From positions 62,001-126,000 of the forward strand of contig JAJEJC010000008.1 of NCBI GenBank assembly GCA_022828105.1: a DNA stretch of 64,000 nt. The letters run 5' to 3'. The notes beneath the pieces were generated by a model. It had not been told where the DNA came from and searched no databases. It saw nothing but the letters and a program-made list of their open reading frames with translations. The position numbers and the translations under genes are program-made. This DNA comes from Dehalococcoidia bacterium. Lineage in GTDB: Bacteria > Chloroflexota > Dehalococcoidia > Bin125. Numbering within the stretch: position 1 is the first letter of the stretch; each line of letters starts with the position of its first letter. Below are positions 1-31,124 of the stretch, piece by piece.

Positions 1-144
1 CGGTGACGGTGGCGCGTCGTGAGACACGGCAGTGGTAGGCGGAGTCGTCGGAGGGTCAGCGAGTGGAGGAGTTGGTGGGTCGGTTGTTGGGCTAGAGGTC
101 GCGGAGGGTGCGGTCGATGCGGCGGAGGGCGTTGGTGATGGTGA
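1..144. other. Window edge, no supported gene
   Basis: The first 144 bases are G-rich on the plus strand and hold no reading frame with a start that I can support. They are downstream of the aspartic protease-like gene that ends at 145. The segment may be its 3' flank or the end of a gene cut by the window edge. Confidence 0.4.
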
Positions 145-630
145 TCAGGCGGGGGTGGCTTCGGTGAGGGTGACCGTGGGTGGGTTGTAGGAGAGGGCGA
201 GGTCGAAGTAGCGGAGGACGTCACAGCCCAGCAGGCTGGGCATCTCCCAGTTGCTGACGGGAGTCGGTTGTGGACTTGAGGGTCGTGCGACGAGGACTGG
301 CAGGTCGATGCTCAGCGGCGCGCCGCGATCGTCCCGAAACGTGAGAGTCGCCGAGCGGATCACGAACCCGCTTGCATCGCCGCTGATCCCGTACAGATCG
401 AAACGCCCGGCGTCTCGTTCGAAGTCGATGCGGTGATAAGCATCGCCGAGGAGAATGCGCGCGTCCGTCGGGGTAAGCAAGGTGTAGTCGGCGCCCGTGT
501 CGATGTGCAACTCCAGCGGCGCGCTTCGGTCACCAATGCGTGCCGAGGCTGCGACGACAGGTCGCATCACGTCGCCGAGCAGCGCGTGAAACGGTTCTTC
601 GTAAAGGAAAATGCCGGGGATCGTCGCCAC
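145..630 (-). CDS. Retropepsin-like aspartic protease domain protein
   Basis: The 161-residue product carries the motif LHIDTGADYTLL near residue 43, the Asp-Thr-Gly signature of retropepsin-like (clan AA) aspartic proteases, followed by the usual hydrophobic beta-strand pattern. One catalytic Asp per chain implies a homodimer. The start is GTG at 630, which shares its G with the TAG stop of the upstream gene (TAGTG), so the two are almost certainly translationally coupled. No signal peptide is seen, so it probably acts in the cytoplasm. Substrate unknown. A non-proteolytic retropepsin-fold binding protein is the main alternative. Confidence 0.7.
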   Translation of the reverse strand: MATIPGIFLYEEPFHALLGDVMRPVVAASARIGDRSAPLELHIDTGADYTLLTPTDARILLGDAYHRIDFERDAGRFDLYGISGDASGFVIRSATLTFRDDRGAPLSIDLPVLVARPSSPQPTPVSNWEMPSLLGCDVLRYFDLALSYNPPTVTLTEATPA

Positions 631-929
631 TAGGGGTTCCGACCGCCGGGAAGAAACGACGCCGCGTATGAGTGGCGCGAAGCTGGCCTCACGAAGTGGT
701 GATACGCGGCGTTGCGTTGCCGGTCGGGCAGGGATTCTCTGGCGGCGAGCATGTCGGCGGGATTATCGAATGTGCGGATCGTTTGGCCGTCGTAGATCAG
801 GATCCACTTGCCGCGAAGTTGCTCGGCCAAGTCCTGCTGCCGATCGCGCCAACAGGAGGCATTGCGCTCGAACTCGGCGAGTTGTGCGCACTGGGCTGCG
901 GCGTCGGGCGCAGGAGGGCTGCTGACCAC
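630..929 (-). CDS. DUF5678-like small protein
   Basis: This 99-residue protein has a core GKWILIYDGQTIRTFDNPAD (residues about 40-59), which resembles the short DUF5678 domain. The C-terminal half continues with an Arg/His-rich tail. Start is GTG at 929. It overlaps the next gene, a retropepsin-like protease, by one base. Adjacency of such small domains to retropepsin-like proteins suggests they work as a pair, but function is unknown. It contains two Cys (residues 14 and 26) of no obvious motif. Confidence 0.6.
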   Translation of the reverse strand: MVSSPPAPDAAAQCAQLAEFERNASCWRDRQQDLAEQLRGKWILIYDGQTIRTFDNPADMLAARESLPDRQRNAAYHHFVRPASRHSYAASFLPGGRNP

Positions 930-15463: not shown

Positions 15464-16339
15464 ATGGCAGTGCAATCAGTGGGCCGGGTGAGTCAGCTCT
15501 GGCGGTATCCGGTCAAGTCGATGGCCGGTGAACAACTTGAAAGTGTCAAGATCGACCACAACGGCGTCGCCGGCGATCGCGGCTGGGCCGTGCGCGAGGT
15601 CGAGGCCGATGTCACGCGCAACGCCCGTGAGATGCCGAAGCTGCTGCAATTCGCGTCCGCCTACACCGAGTCGCCGAGCTTTGAACGTCGGTCGCCGGCT
15701 GTCACAATCACCACACCCGACAACGCGCAGGTCCAGTCCGCCGACGCGGATCGCGATCGGCAGCTCAGCGAGATCCTCGGCCGTCCGGTGATGCTGACGC
15801 CGCTGCATCCGGCCGACGATCTGGCCTGGTACGCGCGCGGACAGATGCCGGAAGGCGTCGACCCGATGGCGGCGCTGCGCCAGTTGATGGGCATGGAAGA
15901 AGACGATCCGCTGCCGGACTTCTCCGGCATCCCGGAGGCCCTGCAGAGCTTCTCGACGCCGCCGGGCACGTACTTCGACTGCTACCCGATCCACATCATG
16001 ACGACATCGTCGCTCGACACGCTGGCGGGCGTCGGCGGCGGTGACGATGTGGACGTGCGTCGCTTCCGTCCCAACGTGCTGATCGACACCGGCGAAGCGG
16101 AAGGACTGCTGGAGGTCGACTGGACCGGCAAGCGGCTGCGTCTGGGCGAGGTCGTGATCGAGATGATGACCACGACCGTGCGCTGCTCGGTGCCGGCGCA
16201 TTCGCAGCGGGCGTTCGGATCGAGCCGCGCCGTAGGCCGCGCGCTGATCGAGCACACGAAGCAGCACCTCGGCAGCTACTGCAACGTCCTCGAAGGCGGA
16301 GCCGTCAATGTCGGCGACGAGGTTGCGTTGATCGACTAG
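15464..16339 (+). CDS. MOSC domain protein
   Basis: The 291-residue protein begins with the MOSC N-terminal beta-barrel signature (VSQLWRYPVKSMAGEQLESV) and continues with DHNGVAGDRGWAVRE. The C-terminal part has FRPNVLIDTGEAEG and a Cys in TTTVRCSVPAHSQ at the position where MOSC proteins carry the sulfur-binding or cofactor-facing Cys. The family includes molybdenum-cofactor sulfurases and YcbX-like reductases. A GGAAGAGG site precedes ATG 15464. It is divergent from the cysDN-tup operon, so sulfur or molybdenum/tungsten metabolism is a plausible shared theme. Confidence 0.85.
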   Translation: MAVQSVGRVSQLWRYPVKSMAGEQLESVKIDHNGVAGDRGWAVREVEADVTRNAREMPKLLQFASAYTESPSFERRSPAVTITTPDNAQVQSADADRDRQLSEILGRPVMLTPLHPADDLAWYARGQMPEGVDPMAALRQLMGMEEDDPLPDFSGIPEALQSFSTPPGTYFDCYPIHIMTTSSLDTLAGVGGGDDVDVRRFRPNVLIDTGEAEGLLEVDWTGKRLRLGEVVIEMMTTTVRCSVPAHSQRAFGSSRAVGRALIEHTKQHLGSYCNVLEGGAVNVGDEVALID

Positions 16340-17820
16340 CCGGCGGCCGCCACGTCGACGACTTCCGTGTCGGCGTGGAATGCTTGCCAGGCGAACCAGA
16401 AATGGTCCGAGTGGATCACGCGGGTGAGTTGCGCGCCCTCCAGCTCGCCGCTGATTGCGCGACCGAAGATGTCCCAGACCGAGCCGGTTTGCTCGTCGAT
16501 GAACGTGCGGCCGCTCGGATCGTCGGGGTTCGGCAGAAACGCGAAGATCCGGCCGTCGAGCGCTGTCTCGAACACCGCGGTGGCGCCGACTTCCCGCGCC
16601 TGGCTGATCACACTGGCATCGAGCGCCGAACGCGCGCCCGGCGTCCAGAAGACGACGAGGTCGATGCCGTCGAAGGTGTCGTGTACGACCGGTTGGCCCT
16701 GCAGGAACGACCAGGAGTAAGCAATCGCCGCGCCGGACGGCCCCTCTATCGCGACCACTCGCTCAGCCGGCGGCAGGCGCGGGTCGACCGAATCGCGGTC
16801 GAAGAAAAAGCCGTAGGGGCCGCCGTCGGTCGGATTGTCGTAGCCGCGATAGGGATTCTGTCCGTAGGAGGGGGGCCAGCCGGTCTCGCGCGAGAGCACG
16901 AGCGCGTCGGGGTAGGCCGAGCGCAGTTGTCCGACGCTGACCACCGAGGCCGGCAGGTACTGGAGTCGCGCCCCGACCATCCGTCCGACGATTGCGCGGC
17001 CTGACGACTGCTGCCAGAGCGACTCGGTGTTGCGGTCGTACATGACCAGGTCGGAGTTGCGCAGCAGGCCGGAGACGCCGAACTGGTAGACCGTCTCGCC
17101 GATCTGCGACTCGAACGCGATGGCCGTGTTGCAGAGCGGACAGAAGGTGACCGTAACGGGGATCCCGCCGACGACGTCGTTGACGATCTCATGCCAGGTG
17201 AGGATTTCCAGCGGATATCCGCGCACGTCGCCGTTGACGTTGATCTGCACCAGCGGGATGTTGTCGTCGTAGTAGGTCGAGGCCTCGGCCAGGGTGACGT
17301 AGCGCGGTCCGCTGAGCGCGGGGATGGCGTCGCGAACGGCGCCCTGAAGCAGTTCGTCGAACTCGACGATGCGGATGCCCCACTCGGTCGACCAGTCGCG
17401 ACCGTAGACAGGATGACGCTGGTCGTCGCGGATGATCGGTATGCCTTCGCCCGTCTCGGCGGCGTCGCGGGGGAGAAACGTAGGACGCTCTGCGCCGGCA
17501 GCGGCGGTCTGTTGCTCGCGTTGGTCGTCTTGCGCCGGCTGCGCTTGCCGAGATTGCTGCGCCAGTTGTTCTTGTTGTTCTTGCTGGGCGACTGATTGCG
17601 CTTCTCTCTGTGCCGGCTGTTGCTGGGCCGTCGGTTGCTGATCCTGCTGGGTGGACGGCTGCGCGTCCTGCGCGCCCGATTGCGGTTGGGGTTGTGCCTG
17701 TTGGATGTCGTCGGTGCAGGCGGAGGCGGCGAGCAGCAGAGCCATGGCGGCGGCGAGGGCGAGCAGTGTGATCGTGCGTGCGCGGCTCACCATTCGCAGG
17801 GAGTTTCGTATGCTCTGCAT
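16336..17820 (-). CDS. DUF3179 lipoprotein
   Basis: A 494-residue exported lipoprotein. A signal peptide ends at AASAC (Cys near residue 34), followed by about 75 residues of Gln/Ala/Pro-rich linker. The DUF3179 domain then shows WHEIVNDVVGGIPVTVTFCP, LCNTAIAFE, FGVSGLLRNSDLVMYDRNT and a later GYDNP segment. The conserved His plus CxxC suggest a metal or haem-like site, but the family's function is unknown. Start is ATG 17820, with TATCCT seven bases upstream. The stop overlaps that of the MOSC gene in CTAG. A second DUF3179 gene is at 48866. Confidence 0.88.
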   Translation of the reverse strand: MQSIRNSLRMVSRARTITLLALAAAMALLLAASACTDDIQQAQPQPQSGAQDAQPSTQQDQQPTAQQQPAQREAQSVAQQEQQEQLAQQSRQAQPAQDDQREQQTAAAGAERPTFLPRDAAETGEGIPIIRDDQRHPVYGRDWSTEWGIRIVEFDELLQGAVRDAIPALSGPRYVTLAEASTYYDDNIPLVQINVNGDVRGYPLEILTWHEIVNDVVGGIPVTVTFCPLCNTAIAFESQIGETVYQFGVSGLLRNSDLVMYDRNTESLWQQSSGRAIVGRMVGARLQYLPASVVSVGQLRSAYPDALVLSRETGWPPSYGQNPYRGYDNPTDGGPYGFFFDRDSVDPRLPPAERVVAIEGPSGAAIAYSWSFLQGQPVVHDTFDGIDLVVFWTPGARSALDASVISQAREVGATAVFETALDGRIFAFLPNPDDPSGRTFIDEQTGSVWDIFGRAISGELEGAQLTRVIHSDHFWFAWQAFHADTEVVDVAAAG

Positions 17821-17827
17821 CAGATTG

Positions 17828-17833
17828 AGGATA
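17828..17833 (-). promoter_or_regulatory. -10 box for a leaderless DUF3179 transcript
   Basis: On the minus strand TATCCT lies seven bases before ATG 17820, with no Shine-Dalgarno sequence between them. Confidence 0.5.
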
Positions 17834-17847
17834 TGCGGAGTTGAAGC

Positions 17848-18279
17848 ATGGCGGACGACCCCAACGCCGACTGGCAGCAGGATCGCCGCGCGGTGCTTGA
17901 GGCGAATCGGGCGTTTTACGAGGCGTTCAACGATCGCGACGTCGAAGCGATGGCCGACCTCTGGCTGCGCAGTGACGAGGTGACCTGCATTCATCCGCAT
18001 CGCAATGTGACCAGAGGTCACGCCGATGTGCAGCGCACGTGGCGAGCGATCCTGACGAATCCCGATCAGCCGAAGATCGTCTTCGCCGCCGAGGATGCGC
18101 GGGTGGTCGGCGACATCGGGATTGTGGCCGGCCGCGAGGTGGTCGCGGGCGTGCCGATTGTCGCGACCAACATCTACCAGCGCTCGGACCGCGCCGACGA
18201 GACCGACAACGCCGACACGCCAACCGACACGTGGCTGCTGATCCACCATCACGGCAGCCCCGTGCTGCACACCGAGTAA
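17848..18279 (+). CDS. SnoaL/NTF2-like domain protein
   Basis: The 143-residue protein shows the NTF2-like pattern: an N-terminal helix VLEANRAFYEAFNDRDVEAM, then DLWLRSDEVTCIHPHRNVTRG, a second helix around DVQRTWRAIL, and beta strands ending WLLIHHHGSPV. This fold forms a cone-shaped pocket used by SnoaL-type cyclases, isomerases and stress proteins. The substrate is unknown. A GGAG site lies shortly before ATG 17848. It is divergent from the DUF3179 gene and 20 bases upstream of bcp, with which it may be co-transcribed. Confidence 0.82.
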   Translation: MADDPNADWQQDRRAVLEANRAFYEAFNDRDVEAMADLWLRSDEVTCIHPHRNVTRGHADVQRTWRAILTNPDQPKIVFAAEDARVVGDIGIVAGREVVAGVPIVATNIYQRSDRADETDNADTPTDTWLLIHHHGSPVLHTE

Positions 18280-18804: not shown

Positions 18805-21231
18805 ATGTCCAGGATCTTCAGATTGGCGCTCGGCGCCGTGATTGCGTTGTCTCTTGCGGCGGCGCTCGTCGTCGGCTGTTCCGACGACGACCAATCGCAA
18901 CAGCAACCGCAGCAGGCGGCTGCCGAGCAACAGCCTCAGCAACAGGAAAGCGAGGCGGCCGCTCAGTCCAGCACTGCGCAGCAGCAACAACAAGCTCAGC
19001 CGCAGGCGGTATCCGCCGAGCCACTCAACATCGTGGTCTCCACTCTGATCATTGCCGACTGGGTGCGGCAGATTGGCGGCGATCAGGTGGAGGTCCATGC
19101 GCTGGTTCCGGCCGGCGCCGACGTGCACACGATCGAGCTGAGCGTTTCGGACATCCGCGCGGTTTCCGAAGCGGACCTCGTGATCATCAACGGGGCCAGC
19201 CTGGAATCGGCGTATGAGGACGCGATCCTCGAGAACAACGACCACGTGCTCAACCTCTCGGAGGCGATTGAGGACGCCGGCTTCGAATTGGCCCCGTTCG
19301 GTGCGATGGAGCACGACCACGGGCATGGGGACGAGGACGAGCAGGCCCACGAGGATGAGGATGGCCACGAACACGAGGACGAAGATCATCAGCAGCACGA
19401 ACAACACGAAGCAGACGAGCACGGCGACGCACACGCTGCGACGCCAACCGGTCGGCTGCTGATCGCAGACTCGGCCGAGGCCGTCATTTCAGTCGTCGAC
19501 CTGATGAGCGAAGAGGTCGACCACGGAGCCTTCGCCGTTGCCACGGTCAACGCCACCGTGAAGAACAGTCCTACCCACCGCTACGGCATCGTGCTGGCTC
19601 GCGGTCCGGAGGACGACGACGACCGGGTTCACATCTTCGACGGCGGCGTCTTCCTCGTCGAGCATGGCGACCACTTTGATCTGTTCACCGACCCGGTCTC
19701 CCGGCACTCGCTGGAGATCGTTGAAGAAGCGCCGATCCACTACGTCAACAGCCACGGCTGGACCGCGATCTTCGCCGACACCAATGGTCACGCGATTCTG
19801 ATCAACGAAGAAGAACTCACGAACGCCCAGGGCGACTACGAGCCAATCGTGCTTGAGGCAGGCCCGCAGCATGGAGCCGCGCTGGTCATCTCTGATGACC
19901 ACGTCGTGGTCACGACCAAGAATCCCGACGACCCGAACGACCCGCTGCCTGTCGGCGTCGAGGTCTGGACGTTCGATGGTGAAGTCGTCTACGACGCCAG
20001 CAACGCCTCATGCCCCGGTATGCACGGCGAGGCGCACAGTGCGCATGGCGCGGTCTTTGGCTGCGTCGGCGGCGTGCTCTTCCTGCATGCGCACGACGGC
20101 GAGTACGAGCACGAGTTCATCGCCAACCCGCCGGAGATGCACGAGAGCGCTCGTATCGGTTCCGCCTACGGGCACCATCACCTTGAGCACTTCTTCGGCA
20201 GCGCGTCCTACCGCGGCGAAGACGGCTGGAACTCCGACGGCATCTGGCTGATCGACGTCGCCTACGGCACGATGACCCGCGTCTTCGACGCAGGAACCTT
20301 GGCCGTTGCGATTGGCGATCACGGCGAGACCCTCTACCTGCTTGGCGCCGACGCCATGCTCTACGCACTCGACGCACACGATGGTGAGATGATCGCCAGC
20401 GTCGAGATGGTCGGCGCCGGCGAGGCCGGCAGGCCCGGCATGATCGCCGTCGGCGAGTACCTCTTCATCACCGATCCCAGCGACGGACACGTGCTGATGG
20501 TCGACGGCCACTCGCTTGAGGTCGTCGAGGAATGGCACGTGGGCGGTGCGCCGAGTTCGCTGGCCTTTGTCGGCCTAGTCGACTCGGACGACACTCCACA
20601 CGCCGGTCACGACGAAGACGAGATGCACGAAGACGACCATGACGAAGACGAGGACCACGAGCACGAACAAGACGAGGAGGACGACGATCACGGCGATGAA
20701 GAGGACGGTCACGCCCACGCCCACGGCGACGAGGACCCGCACTTCTGGTTCGACACCGATCTGGCCTCCGCTGCCATCACCGCAATCGCCGATGAGCTCA
20801 GCCACCTGAGCCCAGGCGCGGCGAACGTCTTCAGTGACCGGCTTGAGCTCTACCTCGCCGAGATCGAGGCAGCCGACGCCGAAGTGCGAGCGTTGCTGGC
20901 GGACATTCCGGACAGCCACCGGTTGCTGGTCACGTTCCACGACGCCTTTGGCTACTTCGCTCGACGCTACGGTCTCGACATTGCGGGATTCGTGGTCGAG
21001 GGACCGGAACAGGGCGTCAGCGCCGGCGCGTTGACTGACTTGATTGAGATCATCGAGCACGAGGGTGTTCTGACAGTCTTCCACGAGCCGCAGTTCGACT
21101 CGTCGATCCTCGACACGATCGCCGACGAAACCGGCGTCGGGCGGGGCATCATCTGGTCGCAGCCGACCGAGGACAACCCGACCTTCATCGGCATCCTCGT
21201 CGGCAACGCGCGAGCGATCGCCGAGCAGTAG
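18805..21231 (+). CDS. Zinc ABC substrate-binding lipoprotein with nested AztD-like beta-propeller
   Basis: An 808-residue exported lipoprotein (lipobox VVGC, Cys 25), about 45 residues of Gln-rich linker, then the N-lobe of a ZnuA/AztC-type binding protein (about 74-166) with the first zinc His in GADVHTIELSVSDIRA (His 108). The expected His-rich loop (169-211) leads not to the second lobe but to some 375 residues resembling the AztD zinc metallochaperone propeller, with CPGMHGEAHSAHGAVFGC at 403-420. A second Asp/His-rich loop (599-643) returns to the ZnuA fold: DPHFW (His 646), TFHDAFGYFARRYGL (His 712) and FHEPQFDSS. The usual LDPLG Asp near the C-terminus is missing; WSQPTEDNP stands there. 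TTG 18802 is an alternative start. Confidence 0.85.
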   Translation: MSRIFRLALGAVIALSLAAALVVGCSDDDQSQQQPQQAAAEQQPQQQESEAAAQSSTAQQQQQAQPQAVSAEPLNIVVSTLIIADWVRQIGGDQVEVHALVPAGADVHTIELSVSDIRAVSEADLVIINGASLESAYEDAILENNDHVLNLSEAIEDAGFELAPFGAMEHDHGHGDEDEQAHEDEDGHEHEDEDHQQHEQHEADEHGDAHAATPTGRLLIADSAEAVISVVDLMSEEVDHGAFAVATVNATVKNSPTHRYGIVLARGPEDDDDRVHIFDGGVFLVEHGDHFDLFTDPVSRHSLEIVEEAPIHYVNSHGWTAIFADTNGHAILINEEELTNAQGDYEPIVLEAGPQHGAALVISDDHVVVTTKNPDDPNDPLPVGVEVWTFDGEVVYDASNASCPGMHGEAHSAHGAVFGCVGGVLFLHAHDGEYEHEFIANPPEMHESARIGSAYGHHHLEHFFGSASYRGEDGWNSDGIWLIDVAYGTMTRVFDAGTLAVAIGDHGETLYLLGADAMLYALDAHDGEMIASVEMVGAGEAGRPGMIAVGEYLFITDPSDGHVLMVDGHSLEVVEEWHVGGAPSSLAFVGLVDSDDTPHAGHDEDEMHEDDHDEDEDHEHEQDEEDDDHGDEEDGHAHAHGDEDPHFWFDTDLASAAITAIADELSHLSPGAANVFSDRLELYLAEIEAADAEVRALLADIPDSHRLLVTFHDAFGYFARRYGLDIAGFVVEGPEQGVSAGALTDLIEIIEHEGVLTVFHEPQFDSSILDTIADETGVGRGIIWSQPTEDNPTFIGILVGNARAIAEQ

Positions 21232-21882: not shown

Positions 21883-22872
21883 TTAGCCGCGAGACACGAT
21901 TCGGGCGCCCACTCGGCAGCACGCTCCCCAGCAGACATCGCCGATCAGGCAGCAGGCGCCCCAGCAGACCCTCGCGGTCCGCCGCCAGGAGGATTGCGGC
22001 TGCTCGATCGCGTCATCCGACAGTGCCGAGATGCTCGGCAGCGTGTCGCGCAGGCCTCGCGGACTCAGCATGAACGACAACCCCATCAGGATCACGGCTG
22101 TGAGGATGATCGACGGCCCCGCCGCGAGGTCGAGATAGAAGGAGGAATACAAGCCGACCACGGTGGACACGATGCCGACCAGCGTGCCCGTCAGCATCAT
22201 CGTCGACAGCCGACGGGTCAGCAGCGCGGCGGCCGCCGCAGGCGTGACCAGCATGGCGACGGCGAGGATGACGCCGACCAGGCGGAAGGCAACGACGGTC
22301 GCCAGCGCGATCATGACCAACAGTCCAATCTGCATGACATTGACCGGCACGCCGGAGACGGACGCCACCTCGGGGTCGTAGGACGCAAAGCGAAGCTCGG
22401 GCAGGAACGTCAGCACCACGAGGGCCACGACCAGGGTCAATGTCGCCATCACGATCAGGTCGGTCCAAGACGCGCCCAGGATGTGGCCGACCAGCAGACT
22501 GCTCAGGTCGGTGCCGAACGTTTGTTGTCGGGAGATCAACAGGATGCCGAGCGCGAAGAATCCGGCGAACATGATCCCGATCGCGGTGTCTTCGCGCAGC
22601 CGACCGCGCAGGGTGAGCACGGCCACGCCCAGCGCGGTCAGCACCGCCGCAACACCGGCGCCCAACGTGATCAGGACCGCCCCGCCACCCAGTACCAGGG
22701 CGACCGCCGCGCCGGCGAGCTGCGTGTGCGCGACGGCATCACCGAGAAATGCGAGTCCGCGCAAGACCACAAATGCGCCGACCATGCCGGCCGCCACGGA
22801 CACGATAATGCCGGCGAGCAGCGCACGCTGCATAAACTCGAAGTCCCAAAAGGGATCGATCAGCCATCCCAC
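21883..22872 (-). CDS. znuB: Zinc/manganese-type ABC permease (ZnuB-like)
   Basis: The 329-residue membrane protein has eight to nine hydrophobic segments and the ABC-3 permease pattern (VVLRGLAFLGDAVAHTQLAG, then DPEVASVSGVPV and GVILAVAMLVTPAAAA). It would import zinc or manganese with a binding protein such as that encoded at 18805. The start is GTG 22872. The C-terminus is odd: after the last membrane segment it carries two CWGACC motifs within about 16 residues, six Cys in all. No matching ATPase gene is in the window, so ZnuC must be supplied elsewhere. Confidence 0.88.
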   Translation of the reverse strand: MGWLIDPFWDFEFMQRALLAGIIVSVAAGMVGAFVVLRGLAFLGDAVAHTQLAGAAVALVLGGGAVLITLGAGVAAVLTALGVAVLTLRGRLREDTAIGIMFAGFFALGILLISRQQTFGTDLSSLLVGHILGASWTDLIVMATLTLVVALVVLTFLPELRFASYDPEVASVSGVPVNVMQIGLLVMIALATVVAFRLVGVILAVAMLVTPAAAAALLTRRLSTMMLTGTLVGIVSTVVGLYSSFYLDLAAGPSIILTAVILMGLSFMLSPRGLRDTLPSISALSDDAIEQPQSSWRRTARVCWGACCLIGDVCWGACCRVGARIVSRG

Positions 22873-27308: not shown

Positions 27309-28361
27309 ATGCCACGTCCGACGCAGCGATTCCGTGCGAACCTCGGCGGGCGCTTGCTCCTCATGGGACTCGCCCTTGTCGCCGCCATCGCGCTGGCGCT
27401 GAGCGCTTGCTCCGATGACGGCCAGCAGGCCAACGATGCCGGTCAACTCACGATCTATTCGGGACGCGGCGAGTCGCTGGTCGGTCCGCTGATTGAGCGA
27501 TTCGAAGCGGAGACCGGGATCACGGTCCGTGTGCGCTACGCCGGTACGGCGGAACTGGCCGCTGCCATTCTCGAAGAAGGCGCTCGCTCGCCGGCGGATG
27601 TCTACTACGCGCAGGACGCCGGCGCCCTGGCGGCGCTGGCTGAGGCCGGAGCGTTGACGGAGTTGCCCGAAGACATCGTGGGGCGCGTGCCCGAGTCGTT
27701 CGCCGATGCGGGCGGCGCGTGGGTCGCCACGTCGGGACGGGCCCGCGTGCTGGTCTACTCGCCCGAACGTGTGCCGGACCCGCCCGACAGCATCTTTGCG
27801 CTCGTCGACGAGCAATGGCGGGGACGCATCGGCTGGGCGCCGACCAACGGCAGCTTCCAGGCCTTCGTCACCGCAATGCGCCGGATCCACGGGGATGAGG
27901 CGACGGAAGTCTGGCTGCGCGGCATGATCGCCAACGATGTGCGCGAGTACCCGGGCAACTCGGCGCAGGTCCAGGCCGTCGGAGACGGCGAGATCGACAT
28001 CGGGCTGGTCAACCACTACTACCTGTTCCGCTTCCTGGCCGAAGACCCGGACTTTCCCGCTGCCAACCAATTCACCGATCCGGGCACTGCAGGCGGACTG
28101 ATCAACGTTGCCGGGGTTGCGCTACTCGCCGCCTCGGAGAACGACAATCACGCGCTGGCCTTCATCCGCTTCCTCCTGGACGAGGAGGCGCAGACCTACT
28201 TCCGCGACGAAACCAGCGAGTACCCGCTCAGCGCGGATGTCGACGCCCGGGCCGAGTTGATACCGCTGGACGATCTCGATCCGCCGTCGCTGGCGTTGAC
28301 GTCGTTGTCGGACCTGGAAGGGACCCTGGATCTCCTCCAGAGAGTCGGCGCGCTGCCGTAG
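27309..28361 (+). CDS. Ferric-iron ABC substrate-binding lipoprotein
   Basis: The 350-residue protein has a signal peptide ending at LSAC (lipobox), then LTIYSGRGESLVGPLIERFE, RYAGTAELAAAILEEG and DVYYAQDAGALAALAEAG, all typical of the FbpA/FutA iron-binding family. Conserved Tyr residues late in the chain (NHYYLFRFL) would bind Fe3+. It hands iron to the permease at 28424. The start ATG 27309 has a weak GGGAG upstream. Confidence 0.9.
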   Translation: MPRPTQRFRANLGGRLLLMGLALVAAIALALSACSDDGQQANDAGQLTIYSGRGESLVGPLIERFEAETGITVRVRYAGTAELAAAILEEGARSPADVYYAQDAGALAALAEAGALTELPEDIVGRVPESFADAGGAWVATSGRARVLVYSPERVPDPPDSIFALVDEQWRGRIGWAPTNGSFQAFVTAMRRIHGDEATEVWLRGMIANDVREYPGNSAQVQAVGDGEIDIGLVNHYYLFRFLAEDPDFPAANQFTDPGTAGGLINVAGVALLAASENDNHALAFIRFLLDEEAQTYFRDETSEYPLSADVDARAELIPLDDLDPPSLALTSLSDLEGTLDLLQRVGALP

Positions 28362-28411
28362 CTCGACGTTCGCATTGGGAGTGGGACACAGGGCAACATC
28401 TCTTGCTCGGA

Positions 28412-28417
28412 TAATCT
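28412..28417 (+). promoter_or_regulatory. -10 box for a possible leaderless permease transcript
   Basis: TAATCT is six bases before ATG 28424, suggesting an internal start inside the iron-transporter cluster in addition to the promoter at 27218. Confidence 0.4.
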
Positions 28418-28423
28418 CAAGCC

Positions 28424-30031
28424 ATGAGCATCTTCAGCGGAGCGGCTGGGTTCGGGCCGAGACTGCGACTCCGCATTCCGGCCCTGTGGCTTCTGGCCTT
28501 GGCCGCCGCGGCGGCGGCCTGTATCCCGTTGGTGTACCTGGTGATCCGGGCGGCGCAAGCGGACAGCGACGCCTGGGCGGACGTGTTCTCGAACGAAACC
28601 GGCCGGTTGCTGCTCAACACGGCGGTCCTGGCCCTGACCGTGACCGCGACCTCGGCGGGGCTTGCCTTGCCGATGGCTTACCTGACCGAACGCACCGACC
28701 TGCCCTTCGCCCGCTGGTGGCGTTCGATCACGATCATGCCGCTTGCGGTGCCGTCGTACGTGGGCGGTTTCGCCTTCATCGTCGCGTTCGGTCCGCACGG
28801 ATCGATGCAGCAACTGCTGGCTCCGCTGGGCGTGGAGAGCATCCCATCGCTCTATGGATTCGTCGGCGCCTGGTTGACGCTGACGCTGTTCACCTACCCA
28901 TATCTGCTGCTTGTGATCCGGGCGGGGTTGCGCGATCTCGACCCGGCGCTCGAGGACGCGGCGCGATCCCTGGGACAGTCGGCCTGGGGCGCGTTCTGGC
29001 GCGTGACCGTGCCGCAGCTTCGTGTGCCGCTGGCCGCCGGCAGCCTGCTGGTGGCGTTGTATGTGATCTCCGACTTCGGCGCGGTCTCGATGATGCGATT
29101 CGACACCTTTACGCGAGCGATCTTCGTGCGCTTCGGATCCAGCTTCGATCGCTCCACGCTGGCGGTGCTTTCGCTGGTCCTGGTTGCGTTGATCGCCCTG
29201 GTCTTGGCGATCGACTGGTCGCAGCGCCGCAACGCCCGCTACCACCGGCTGGGCGCGGGAGCGGCTCGGACGCCGCGGCTGATCCAGTTGCGGCGCTACC
29301 GCTGGCCTGCCTCTGCGGGTCTGTTGCTCGTGACGGCCGTAGCGCTGCTGGTGCCGGTCGCGGTGTTGTTCCACTGGCTGGCCAACGGCCTGAGGCAGGG
29401 CGAGACGTTTCCCGGCCTCTGGACCGCGGCGCTGCACTCGCTGGAGGCCTCGGCGCTGGCCGGCGGCGTCGCGGTAGCGGCGGCCGTCCCAATCGCGATC
29501 GTGGTCGTGCGGCGTCCGGGATTCCTCGCACGAATCATCGACCGGGCCGCATACGTCGGTTACGCGCTGCCGGGCATTGTGGTCGCGTTTGCCTTGATTT
29601 TTTTCTCGCTGCGCGTGACGCCGGGCTTGTACCAGACACTGGGCATCCTGATCTTCGCTTACGTCGCGCTCTTTCTGCCTCAGGCGATCTCCGGACTGCG
29701 GTCCTCGCTGGTCCGGGTGCAACCCGGCATTGAGGAGGCCTCGCGTTCGCTCAACCGGAACTCCTGGCAGACCTTCTACAGCGTTACCCTGCCCTTGATT
29801 GCACCCGGTGTCCTGGCCGGATTCGCCCTGGTGTTCCTGACGACGATGAAAGAGCTGCCGGCAACCTTGCTGCTCGCGCCGATCGGCTTCGAGACGCTCG
29901 CCACGCACCTCTGGGCGCAGCACCAGGACGTCTACTTCGCCCGGGCGGCCGCCAACGCGCTGTTGCTACTGGGATGCGCCGCCCTGCCGATGATTATTCT
30001 GTTCGGAAACGACCGTGACCTCCGCGCCTGA
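28424..30031 (+). CDS. Ferric-iron ABC permease (double-domain)
   Basis: The 535-residue membrane protein is a two-domain fusion of the FbpB type, with about twelve hydrophobic segments and two EAA loops: EDAARSLGQSAWGAFWRVTV in the first half and EEASRSLNRNSWQTFYSVTL in the second. It forms the whole membrane channel. It lies 62 bases after the binding-protein gene and overlaps the ATPase gene by 17 bases. Confidence 0.93.
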   Translation: MSIFSGAAGFGPRLRLRIPALWLLALAAAAAACIPLVYLVIRAAQADSDAWADVFSNETGRLLLNTAVLALTVTATSAGLALPMAYLTERTDLPFARWWRSITIMPLAVPSYVGGFAFIVAFGPHGSMQQLLAPLGVESIPSLYGFVGAWLTLTLFTYPYLLLVIRAGLRDLDPALEDAARSLGQSAWGAFWRVTVPQLRVPLAAGSLLVALYVISDFGAVSMMRFDTFTRAIFVRFGSSFDRSTLAVLSLVLVALIALVLAIDWSQRRNARYHRLGAGAARTPRLIQLRRYRWPASAGLLLVTAVALLVPVAVLFHWLANGLRQGETFPGLWTAALHSLEASALAGGVAVAAAVPIAIVVVRRPGFLARIIDRAAYVGYALPGIVVAFALIFFSLRVTPGLYQTLGILIFAYVALFLPQAISGLRSSLVRVQPGIEEASRSLNRNSWQTFYSVTLPLIAPGVLAGFALVFLTTMKELPATLLLAPIGFETLATHLWAQHQDVYFARAAANALLLLGCAALPMIILFGNDRDLRA

Positions 30032-31124
30032 ATCCAAGATCTCGCCGCCGGCGCTGCTCGTGCGCGACCTGTCCAAAGCGTTCGAGGGCACTGTGGCAGT
30101 GCGGGAGGCGACGTTCGAGGTCACGCGCGGCGAGATCGTGGCATTGCTGGGACCGAGCGGGTGCGGCAAGTCGACCACCCTGCGCATGATCGCCGGGTTC
30201 GAACGACCCGACGACGGACTGATCCGGGTCAACGGCGAAACCGCCGTCGGTCCCGGCGTCTGGCAACCGCCGGAGCGCCGCCGAGTCGGCATCGTCCCGC
30301 AGGACTTCGCGCTCTTCCCGCACCTGAGCGTGGCCGAGAACATCGCCTTCGGCCTGGCCGATGGACACCGCGCATGGTGGACGCGGGTCTGGCGCCGCTT
30401 CCGGCATGAGCCGCCGCCCGCTCGGGTCGCGGAAATGCTGGATCTGGTGGGTTTGCGCGATTTTGGCGAGCGGTATCCGCATGAACTGTCCGGCGGCGAA
30501 GCGCAGCGGGTGGCGCTGGCCCGCGCGCTCGCGCCTGAACCGGCCGCGGTGTTGCTCGATGAGCCGTTTAGCAACCTCGACCAGAACTTGCGCGCCAGCC
30601 TGCGTCTGGCCATGCGCCGAATCCTCAAGGCCGCCGACACGGCAGCCGTCTTCGTCACCCACGACCGCGAAGAGGCGCTCTCGCTGGCCGATCGGGTCGC
30701 AGTGATGCGTGAGGGCCGTATCGAGCAGATCGGCGCGCCCGACGATATCTACTATCGACCCGAGACGCGGTTCATCGGCTCGTTCGTCGGCGATGCCAAT
30801 GTGCTGCCGGCCACGAGTCTCCGCGGCGGCGCCGAAACGGAGCTGGGCTTCGTCATCCTGCTCGACCCGATTGACAGCGAAGACGGCCGGCCGCTTGATA
30901 TCCTCTTGCGCCCCGAGCAGCTCGCCCTGAAGCCGGCCGCGGCGGATGACGCCGAGGCCGGCCGGGTGATCAACAGCGAGTACTACGGTCACGACCAGGT
31001 CGTACGGGTGCGGTTGCCGTCGGGCCTCCAGGTCGAGACCCGGCTGCGCACGGAGACGGTCTGGCAACCCGACGATCCGGTTCAGGTGGTCGTCCTTGAC
31101 GACGCGATCGGCTTCGCCCGCTGA
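30015..31124 (+). CDS. Ferric-iron ABC transporter ATPase
   Basis: The 369-residue ATPase has Walker A LLGPSGCGKSTTLRMIAGFE, signature LSGGEAQRVALARAL, Walker B VLLDEPFSNLD, H-loop FVTHDREEAL and a C-terminal TOBE-like domain with LRPEQLAL. It energises iron import. Start is GTG 30015, inside the end of the permease gene, which implies translational coupling. Confidence 0.92.
   Translation: MTSAPESKISPPALLVRDLSKAFEGTVAVREATFEVTRGEIVALLGPSGCGKSTTLRMIAGFERPDDGLIRVNGETAVGPGVWQPPERRRVGIVPQDFALFPHLSVAENIAFGLADGHRAWWTRVWRRFRHEPPPARVAEMLDLVGLRDFGERYPHELSGGEAQRVALARALAPEPAAVLLDEPFSNLDQNLRASLRLAMRRILKAADTAAVFVTHDREEALSLADRVAVMREGRIEQIGAPDDIYYRPETRFIGSFVGDANVLPATSLRGGAETELGFVILLDPIDSEDGRPLDILLRPEQLALKPAAADDAEAGRVINSEYYGHDQVVRVRLPSGLQVETRLRTETVWQPDDPVQVVVLDDAIGFAR

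Follow-up and report, generated by a model that had tools for sequence, protein, structure and literature searches.

An AztD-type β-propeller nested in the metal loop of a zinc-type solute-binding protein of Dehalococcoidia

A gene of a Dehalococcoidia bacterium encodes a cluster A-I solute-binding protein (SBP) of the zinc type that is split by a complete AztD β-propeller, zinc as the cargo being an inference. The gene lies in the window, as the whole stretch of 64,000 nucleotides that was analysed is called here, with an ATG at 18805 and a stop codon at 21229-21231, giving 808 amino acids (Table 1). Domain identity, fold, ligand conservation, insertion site and distribution are established by the evidence set out below, as is the repeated gain, loss and swapping of the insert. 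The protein is likely (a probability of about 0.75) to be the zinc-binding lipoprotein of an ABC zinc importer, in which AztD is nested in its own acceptor and zinc is transferred within one molecule, a transfer that is inferred without any experiment.

Table 1. Parts of the fusion gene and the permease gene near it, in nucleotide positions of the window.
Feature	Position	Strand	Basis and remarks
Fusion gene: SBP N part, AztD propeller, SBP C part; 808 aa	18805..21231	+	ORF, profile matches, superposition
Signal peptide with lipobox-like LVVGC end (Cys25)	18805..18879	+	Sequence reading; relatives alike
Gln-rich spacer, residues 26-70	18880..19014	+	Sequence reading
SBP fold, N-terminal part, residues 71-165; ligand His108	19015..19299	+	Profile, PDB-sequence, alignment, superposition
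Linker 1, His/Asp/Glu-rich, residues 166-215	19300..19449	+	50 aa, 11 His; interrupted D-loop, first half
AztD propeller domain, residues 216-590	19450..20574	+	NCBIfam AztD, PDB-sequence, alignment, Foldseek, superposition
Linker 2, His/Asp/Glu-rich, residues 591-642	20575..20730	+	52 aa, 10 His
SBP fold, C-terminal part, residues 643-808	20731..21228	+	Ligands His646, His712; conserved Glu761; Ser785
AztB-like ABC-3 permease, convergent to the fusion gene	21883..22872	-	Profile matches; conserved in genus

Owing to the lipobox-like end of its signal peptide, the fusion protein is predicted to be a lipoprotein. A DUF3179 protein encoded in the window (16336-18270) also possesses a long Gln-rich stretch resembling that of the fusion protein, and Gln-rich spacers behind lipoboxes are perhaps frequent in the source genome. 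The AlphaFold model, built from residues 71-808 with an alignment of 34 sequences, has a mean pLDDT of 82 and a pTM of 0.55, both linkers being below a pLDDT of 50 over most of their length; consequently, the placement of the donor site relative to the acceptor site is not predicted.

Regarding the outer parts, the Pfam profile ZnuA (PF01297) matches them in two stretches with 227 bits against a cut-off of 29 (E=3e-67), and their closest solved sequences in a PDB sequence search are SBPs of the ZnuA/MntA/TroA type. Both parts jointly superpose on the loop-deletion mutant of AztC (5kzj_B; Z 32.2, rmsd 1.6, 258 residues, model range 2..738) and, with similar quality (Z about 32, ~260 residues), on holo AztC, MntC, TroA and ZnuA. 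In the Foldseek search, cluster A-I SBPs ranked after the AztD structures. Since the outer parts and the middle each superpose on their respective known fold, the former are assigned to one SBP and the latter to AztD. The SBP ligands His108, His646 and His712 are invariant in all 34 aligned relatives, and so is the position of Glu761.

The C-terminal Asp ligand of AztC (Asp279), an Asp thought to complete the zinc transfer, is replaced by Ser785 in the stretch IIWSQPT. A loss caused by the fusion was ruled out, as the C-terminal Asp is likewise missing from unfused relatives belonging to either main shell type, including L047, and its absence is thus unrelated to the fusion. Zinc-specific SBPs of groups I and II are known to use 3His/Glu or 3His/water ligation (PMC7731109). 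The AztC equivalog NF040870 scores 165.9 bits against a curated cut-off of 350, which is not reached; with this score and without the Asp, the fusion SBP is not classed as AztC, though an AztC-like way of working is proposed by inference.

As for the middle part, the NCBIfam AztD profile (NF038015) aligns residues 221-589 with its positions 2-354 of 356, practically its full length, with E-values of 9.5e-35 (entire protein) and 1.2e-35 (domain taken by itself), the score of 123 bits being under the curated cut-off of 400. Residues 215-612 are closest to AztD in the PDB sequence search (6cmk, E=4e-21), model residues 143-523 superpose on PdAztD (6ck1_B; Z 42.7, rmsd 2.5, 358 residues), and the top Foldseek ranks are occupied by AztD structures (nine chains, E down to 1e-28). 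This AztD domain is not free-standing, being nested in the SBP within a single reading frame.

The ligand positions of the propeller were assigned by alignment to PdAztD, with the PdAztD ligands taken from PMC6689063. Site 2 corresponds to His287, His290 and Asp292, the first and last being present in 33 of 33 fused relatives and His290 in 32 of 33, and site 1 corresponds to His312, His356 and His407, each found in 31-32 of 33. The stretch CPGMHGEAHSAHGAVFGC was confirmed and contains the site-1 ligand His407 together with a conserved Cys pair (403/420). His599 and His602 lie near the offset of the C-terminal site-2 ligand of AztD (His408), but within the disordered linker 2, and it is possible that one of them substitutes for that ligand. 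A fused protein lacking all three site-1 His and His290, with its operon retained, was observed at L069 (5470-7746), providing a natural variant for asking which zinc site matters; at L071, one site-1 His has been lost.

The place of the insertion is informative in the light of the published zinc transfer in Paracoccus, where the D-loop and its three His are required for AztD to pass zinc to AztC (PMC6689063) and where a docking model threads the D-loop into the pore of AztD (PMC6689063, PMC7463823, PMC7731109). The junction of the two SBP parts falls at about positions 99-110 of the 277 of the AztC profile, and a conversion to PdAztC numbering made for this analysis indicates that the insertion most likely corresponds to the AztC D-loop, that is, the metal loop. 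The insertion boundaries are identical across the fused genes, always in the D-loop and never at a terminus. Among fused proteins, the linkers measure 16-67 and 16-74 residues and are rich in His, Asp and Glu; they may combine the loop of the acceptor with the kind of His-rich tails that AztD has at its termini, which is inferred. An SBP of shell type B (L112, G018:C218) carries in its metal loop a helical-looking, Glu/Ala-rich insert without a propeller, running into masked bases, and hints that this loop might accept other inserts.

The first-pass annotation, made from sequence alone, had proposed an AztD-like propeller nested in the His loop of a ZnuA/AztC-type protein, and this held in the profile, PDB-sequence and AlphaFold/superposition analyses. 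Its placing of His108 before the insert and of His646 and His712 after it held exactly, with invariance in 34/34, as did its middle part of about 375 residues between Asp/His-rich loops (216-590, linkers 1 and 2). The joining of donor and acceptor in one polypeptide with the insert in the zinc loop held at the D-loop position, and the missing C-terminal Asp was confirmed as Ser785, though it is absent in unfused relatives too. A middle part unlike AztD or any propeller, or outer parts not forming one ZnuA fold, would have refuted the proposal; both were examined and neither was met. The checks it had called for (structure prediction, AztD/ZnuA profile search and a survey of related genomes) all support the nested architecture. 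Three findings described below go beyond that annotation, namely pairs of paralogues, the swapping of the cassette and a distribution across the phylum.

Concerning the genomic context, the convergent AztB-like permease is the likely partner of the fusion protein, a partnership that is inferred. In the genus of the window, the gene order is conserved as peroxiredoxin, fusion, oligoribonuclease, permease (reverse) and SDR. In many relatives, the fusion heads an SBP-ATPase-permease operon, as at L042-L046, L048, L050, L052, L053, L056, L057, L069, L071 and L072. No AztA-type ATPase gene adjoining the fusion is present in the source genome. The transporter inventory of this genome, compiled through family searches, comprises two ABC-3 permeases, one Fur-family gene, a pair of AztA-like ATPases that score over 190 bits, of which one is unlinked and lies on contig 4, and a further complete SBP-ATPase-permease operon with an SBP that lacks a His loop. 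At L128 (5089-6297), an AztA-like ATPase with a His-rich C-terminal tail was observed, with no SBP or ABC-3 permease seen alongside; it is a possible candidate for the ATPase of the window system. The window also contains, at 27309-31121, a second, unrelated solute-binding protein and a binding-protein-dependent permease, followed by an ATPase-like frame, a system that is probably an iron-type importer, judged by resemblance only.

Within the genus of the window, AztD was found in 13 of 15 genomes, two of which carry two copies, and every match lies in a frame of 797-841 aa. Outside the genus, it is present in a further genus of the family (G016), in a second family of the class (G025) and, elsewhere in the phylum, in two genomes (G211, G273) among 400 sampled. 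A scan of ~85,000 species genomes returned 41 loci, all in Chloroflexota, composed of 35 complete fused genes, three truncated at contig ends, L066 and L061/L063; as the patterns were built from fused propellers, very different AztD fusions in other phyla could escape the scan. Plasmid records yielded 149 AztD relatives below 60% identity, the listed ones being mostly annotated as aztD or hypothetical or left unannotated, and their frames were unchecked for fusion. At L066 (4110-7704), the SBP N part of the fused gene is out of frame, reflecting either a sequencing error or a broken gene. Two loci (L061, 4228-7212; L063, 3-1652) encode a predicted protein without an SBP in which two AztD propellers are arranged in tandem; in L061 they follow a V/E-rich repeat stalk, and on the propeller tree the AztD domains of this protein fall inside the fused propellers. 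Two fused paralogues per genome were observed in G010 (L041/L060) and G003 (L039/L062); L060 is syntenic with the window locus, yet its propeller is only ~61% identical to that of the window. Chloroflexi are abundant in marine sponges (PMC6306507), and many of the fusion-bearing genomes are possibly of marine sponge origin, as suggested by isolate names and not by individual sample records. In the literature searched, there was no report of an AztD-SBP fusion or of AztD in Chloroflexi.

The propeller behaves as an exchangeable cassette, having been gained, lost and swapped several times at the SBP loop, although gain and loss are not resolved by the trees for each event. The shell of L013 (= L044), from the family of the window, is 76-82% identical to those of L022/L023, whereas its propeller shares 35-37% identity with theirs and 65-80% with the propellers of the window genus. 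Fused and unfused SBPs are intermingled in the shell tree; well supported branches force four changes or more, and the placing of all fused shells in a single clade is rejected (p-AU 3e-15). The histories of propeller and shell disagree: in the propeller tree, the gathering of shell type A into one clade is rejected with p-AU 6e-6 and that of shell type B with p-AU 4e-56; in these tests, the groups were defined by shells, not by propellers, and long branches are present. Moreover, L047, in a record labelled chromosome, has two adjacent paralogues, one with the propeller and one without, whose DNA identity is 91% over the stretch that begins ~500 bp upstream and reaches into the loop, and 89% beyond it, the pair differing by a segment of ~1.2 kb that carries the propeller. 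Unfused shells of type A occur in the window's own genus as well (L083, L095, L107-L109, L111). By inference, the SBP tolerates addition, removal or exchange of the cassette and stays intact. Long identical DNA between the two His/Asp linkers was sought and not found: the longest shared stretch has a median of 12 nt, compared with a median of 12.7 expected under synonymous recoding. Exchange via unusually long linker DNA identity is therefore unsupported, and the linkers supply only the homology imposed by their amino acids.

The proposed mechanism rests on what is known of AztD and AztC. Site 2 of AztD is located on an extension made up of the strands at both termini and a hairpin of blade 2 (PMC6689063, PMC7463823, PMC7731109) and is the only one that donates, site 1 not donating to AztC (PMC6689063), and the formation of the AztC/AztD complex is the rate-limiting step (PMC6689063, PMC7463823, PMC7731109). 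In the main reading, the fusion protein would sit on the outer face, serving an ABC zinc importer, where AztD would capture zinc at site 2 through His287, His290, Asp292 and one His of linker 2, this site being held beside the SBP cleft because both propeller ends are tied into the SBP metal loop. Zinc would then move over the His/Asp linkers to His108/His646/His712 of the same molecule, and the zinc-filled SBP would dock on the AztB-like permease, the tether replacing the slow, rate-limiting association of separate AztC and AztD. Zinc as the cargo, the direction of transfer, the permease partner, the faster transfer and the binding and donation of zinc by the propeller are all inferred, and the intramolecular transfer claimed in the first-pass annotation is plausible from the AztC/AztD work (PMC6689063, PMC7463823, PMC7731109) and no more than inferred. 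Against this reading stand the absence of a predicted placement of the two sites in the model, the lack of an adjoining AztA-type ATPase, the absence of the AztC Asp and the ligand losses of L069 and L071, which mean that the full scheme cannot apply to every member. A bolder reading, which may as well be wrong as right, regards the zinc-SBP metal loop as a domain docking site and AztD as a plug-in cassette that has time and again been put into, taken out of and swapped between diverged shells, which would turn a slow two-protein hand-over into a concentration-independent intramolecular relay.

The main rival, considered unlikely, takes the propeller as mainly a tethered surface store or buffer of zinc, which would reach the SBP via solution, the fusion merely fixing stoichiometry and location. 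In its favour, both AztD sites are EDTA-labile and site 1 is non-donating (PMC6689063), the linkers are long, variable (16-74 aa) and His-rich, sponge-like for metal, and related bacteria possess a free protein with two AztD domains (L061, L063). However, the insertion invariably lies in the loop on which direct transfer from AztD depends, never at a terminus, and the site-2 His and Asp are retained almost without exception. Still less probable is a degenerate SBP shell, which would make the protein an anchored AztD or a surface sensor and not a transporter subunit. It is favoured by the non-adjacent ATPase and the convergent permease in the window and by the missing Asp ligand, but the three His of the SBP and the position of Glu761 show no variation (34/34), many members lead an SBP-ATPase-permease operon, and unfused relatives of the transporter type also lack the Asp, 3His/Glu or 3His/water ligation being known (PMC7731109). 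An assembly or binning artefact joining two genes, suggested by the predominance of metagenome-assembled genomes among the relatives, is all but excluded by identical in-frame architecture and boundaries in 35 complete genes from independent assemblies and by three fused genes in records labelled chromosome (OX638325, OX638345, OY282376).

Returning to the nested chaperone-acceptor reading, the nearest known system is AztABCD of Paracoccus denitrificans and Citrobacter koseri, which has in common with the fusion the folds, the zinc ligands and the contact loop region, as well as an AztB-like permease gene near the window fusion. They differ in that AztD and AztC are separate proteins meeting transiently, whereas the AztD of the window is nested in the SBP D-loop; AztC has the Asp ligand that the window SBP lacks, and the NCBIfam cut-offs for AztD and AztC are unmet by the window protein. 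The streptococcal AdcA (ZnuA-like + ZinT) also joins a zinc SBP and an accessory zinc-binding domain in one chain, with its His loop proposed as a bridge between domains (PMC6689063, PMC7858048). In AdcA, however, the accessory domain is ZinT and follows the SBP domain (AdcAN then AdcAC), while AztD lies inside the SBP fold; the AdcA profile NF033605 matches only the SBP parts (100 bits vs a cut-off of 700), and no ZinT domain is present in the window chain. In the SBPs of anchored-repeat ABC transporters (TIGR03772), the N part covers positions 1-92 and the C part 317-482 of 486, leaving ~220 profile positions within the same loop, a region too short for AztD. The window protein scores 161 bits, far under the cut-off of 350, and a member from Corynebacterium diphtheriae, TroA/DIP0438, is zinc/Zur regulated (PMC6711530). 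The closest comparison is offered by the unfused paralogues (L047 1699-2961; L083, L095, L107-L109, L111), which share the SBP shell and the absence of the Asp; their loop is His/Asp- or His/Gln-rich as well, but without a propeller, making them empty-site versions.

Both modules, the covalent fusion of a zinc SBP with an accessory domain (AdcA) and other material in the same loop (TIGR03772) were already known, while a chaperone nested in its own acceptor, together with its repeated exchange, had no precedent in the literature searched. How a chaperone hands zinc directly to a transporter SBP is not yet settled; AztC and AztD meet only briefly, and their complex is known from docking alone. 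In the fusion, the two are tethered by precisely the loop that sits in the propeller pore in the docking model, which fits that model. As a stable system in one chain, the fusion is suited to structural and kinetic work, and the L047 pair, with and without the insert, is a natural matched control. In addition, a 375-residue propeller shuffled inside another fold is a clear example from nature of how a permissive loop of low complexity lets a domain be inserted and exchanged.
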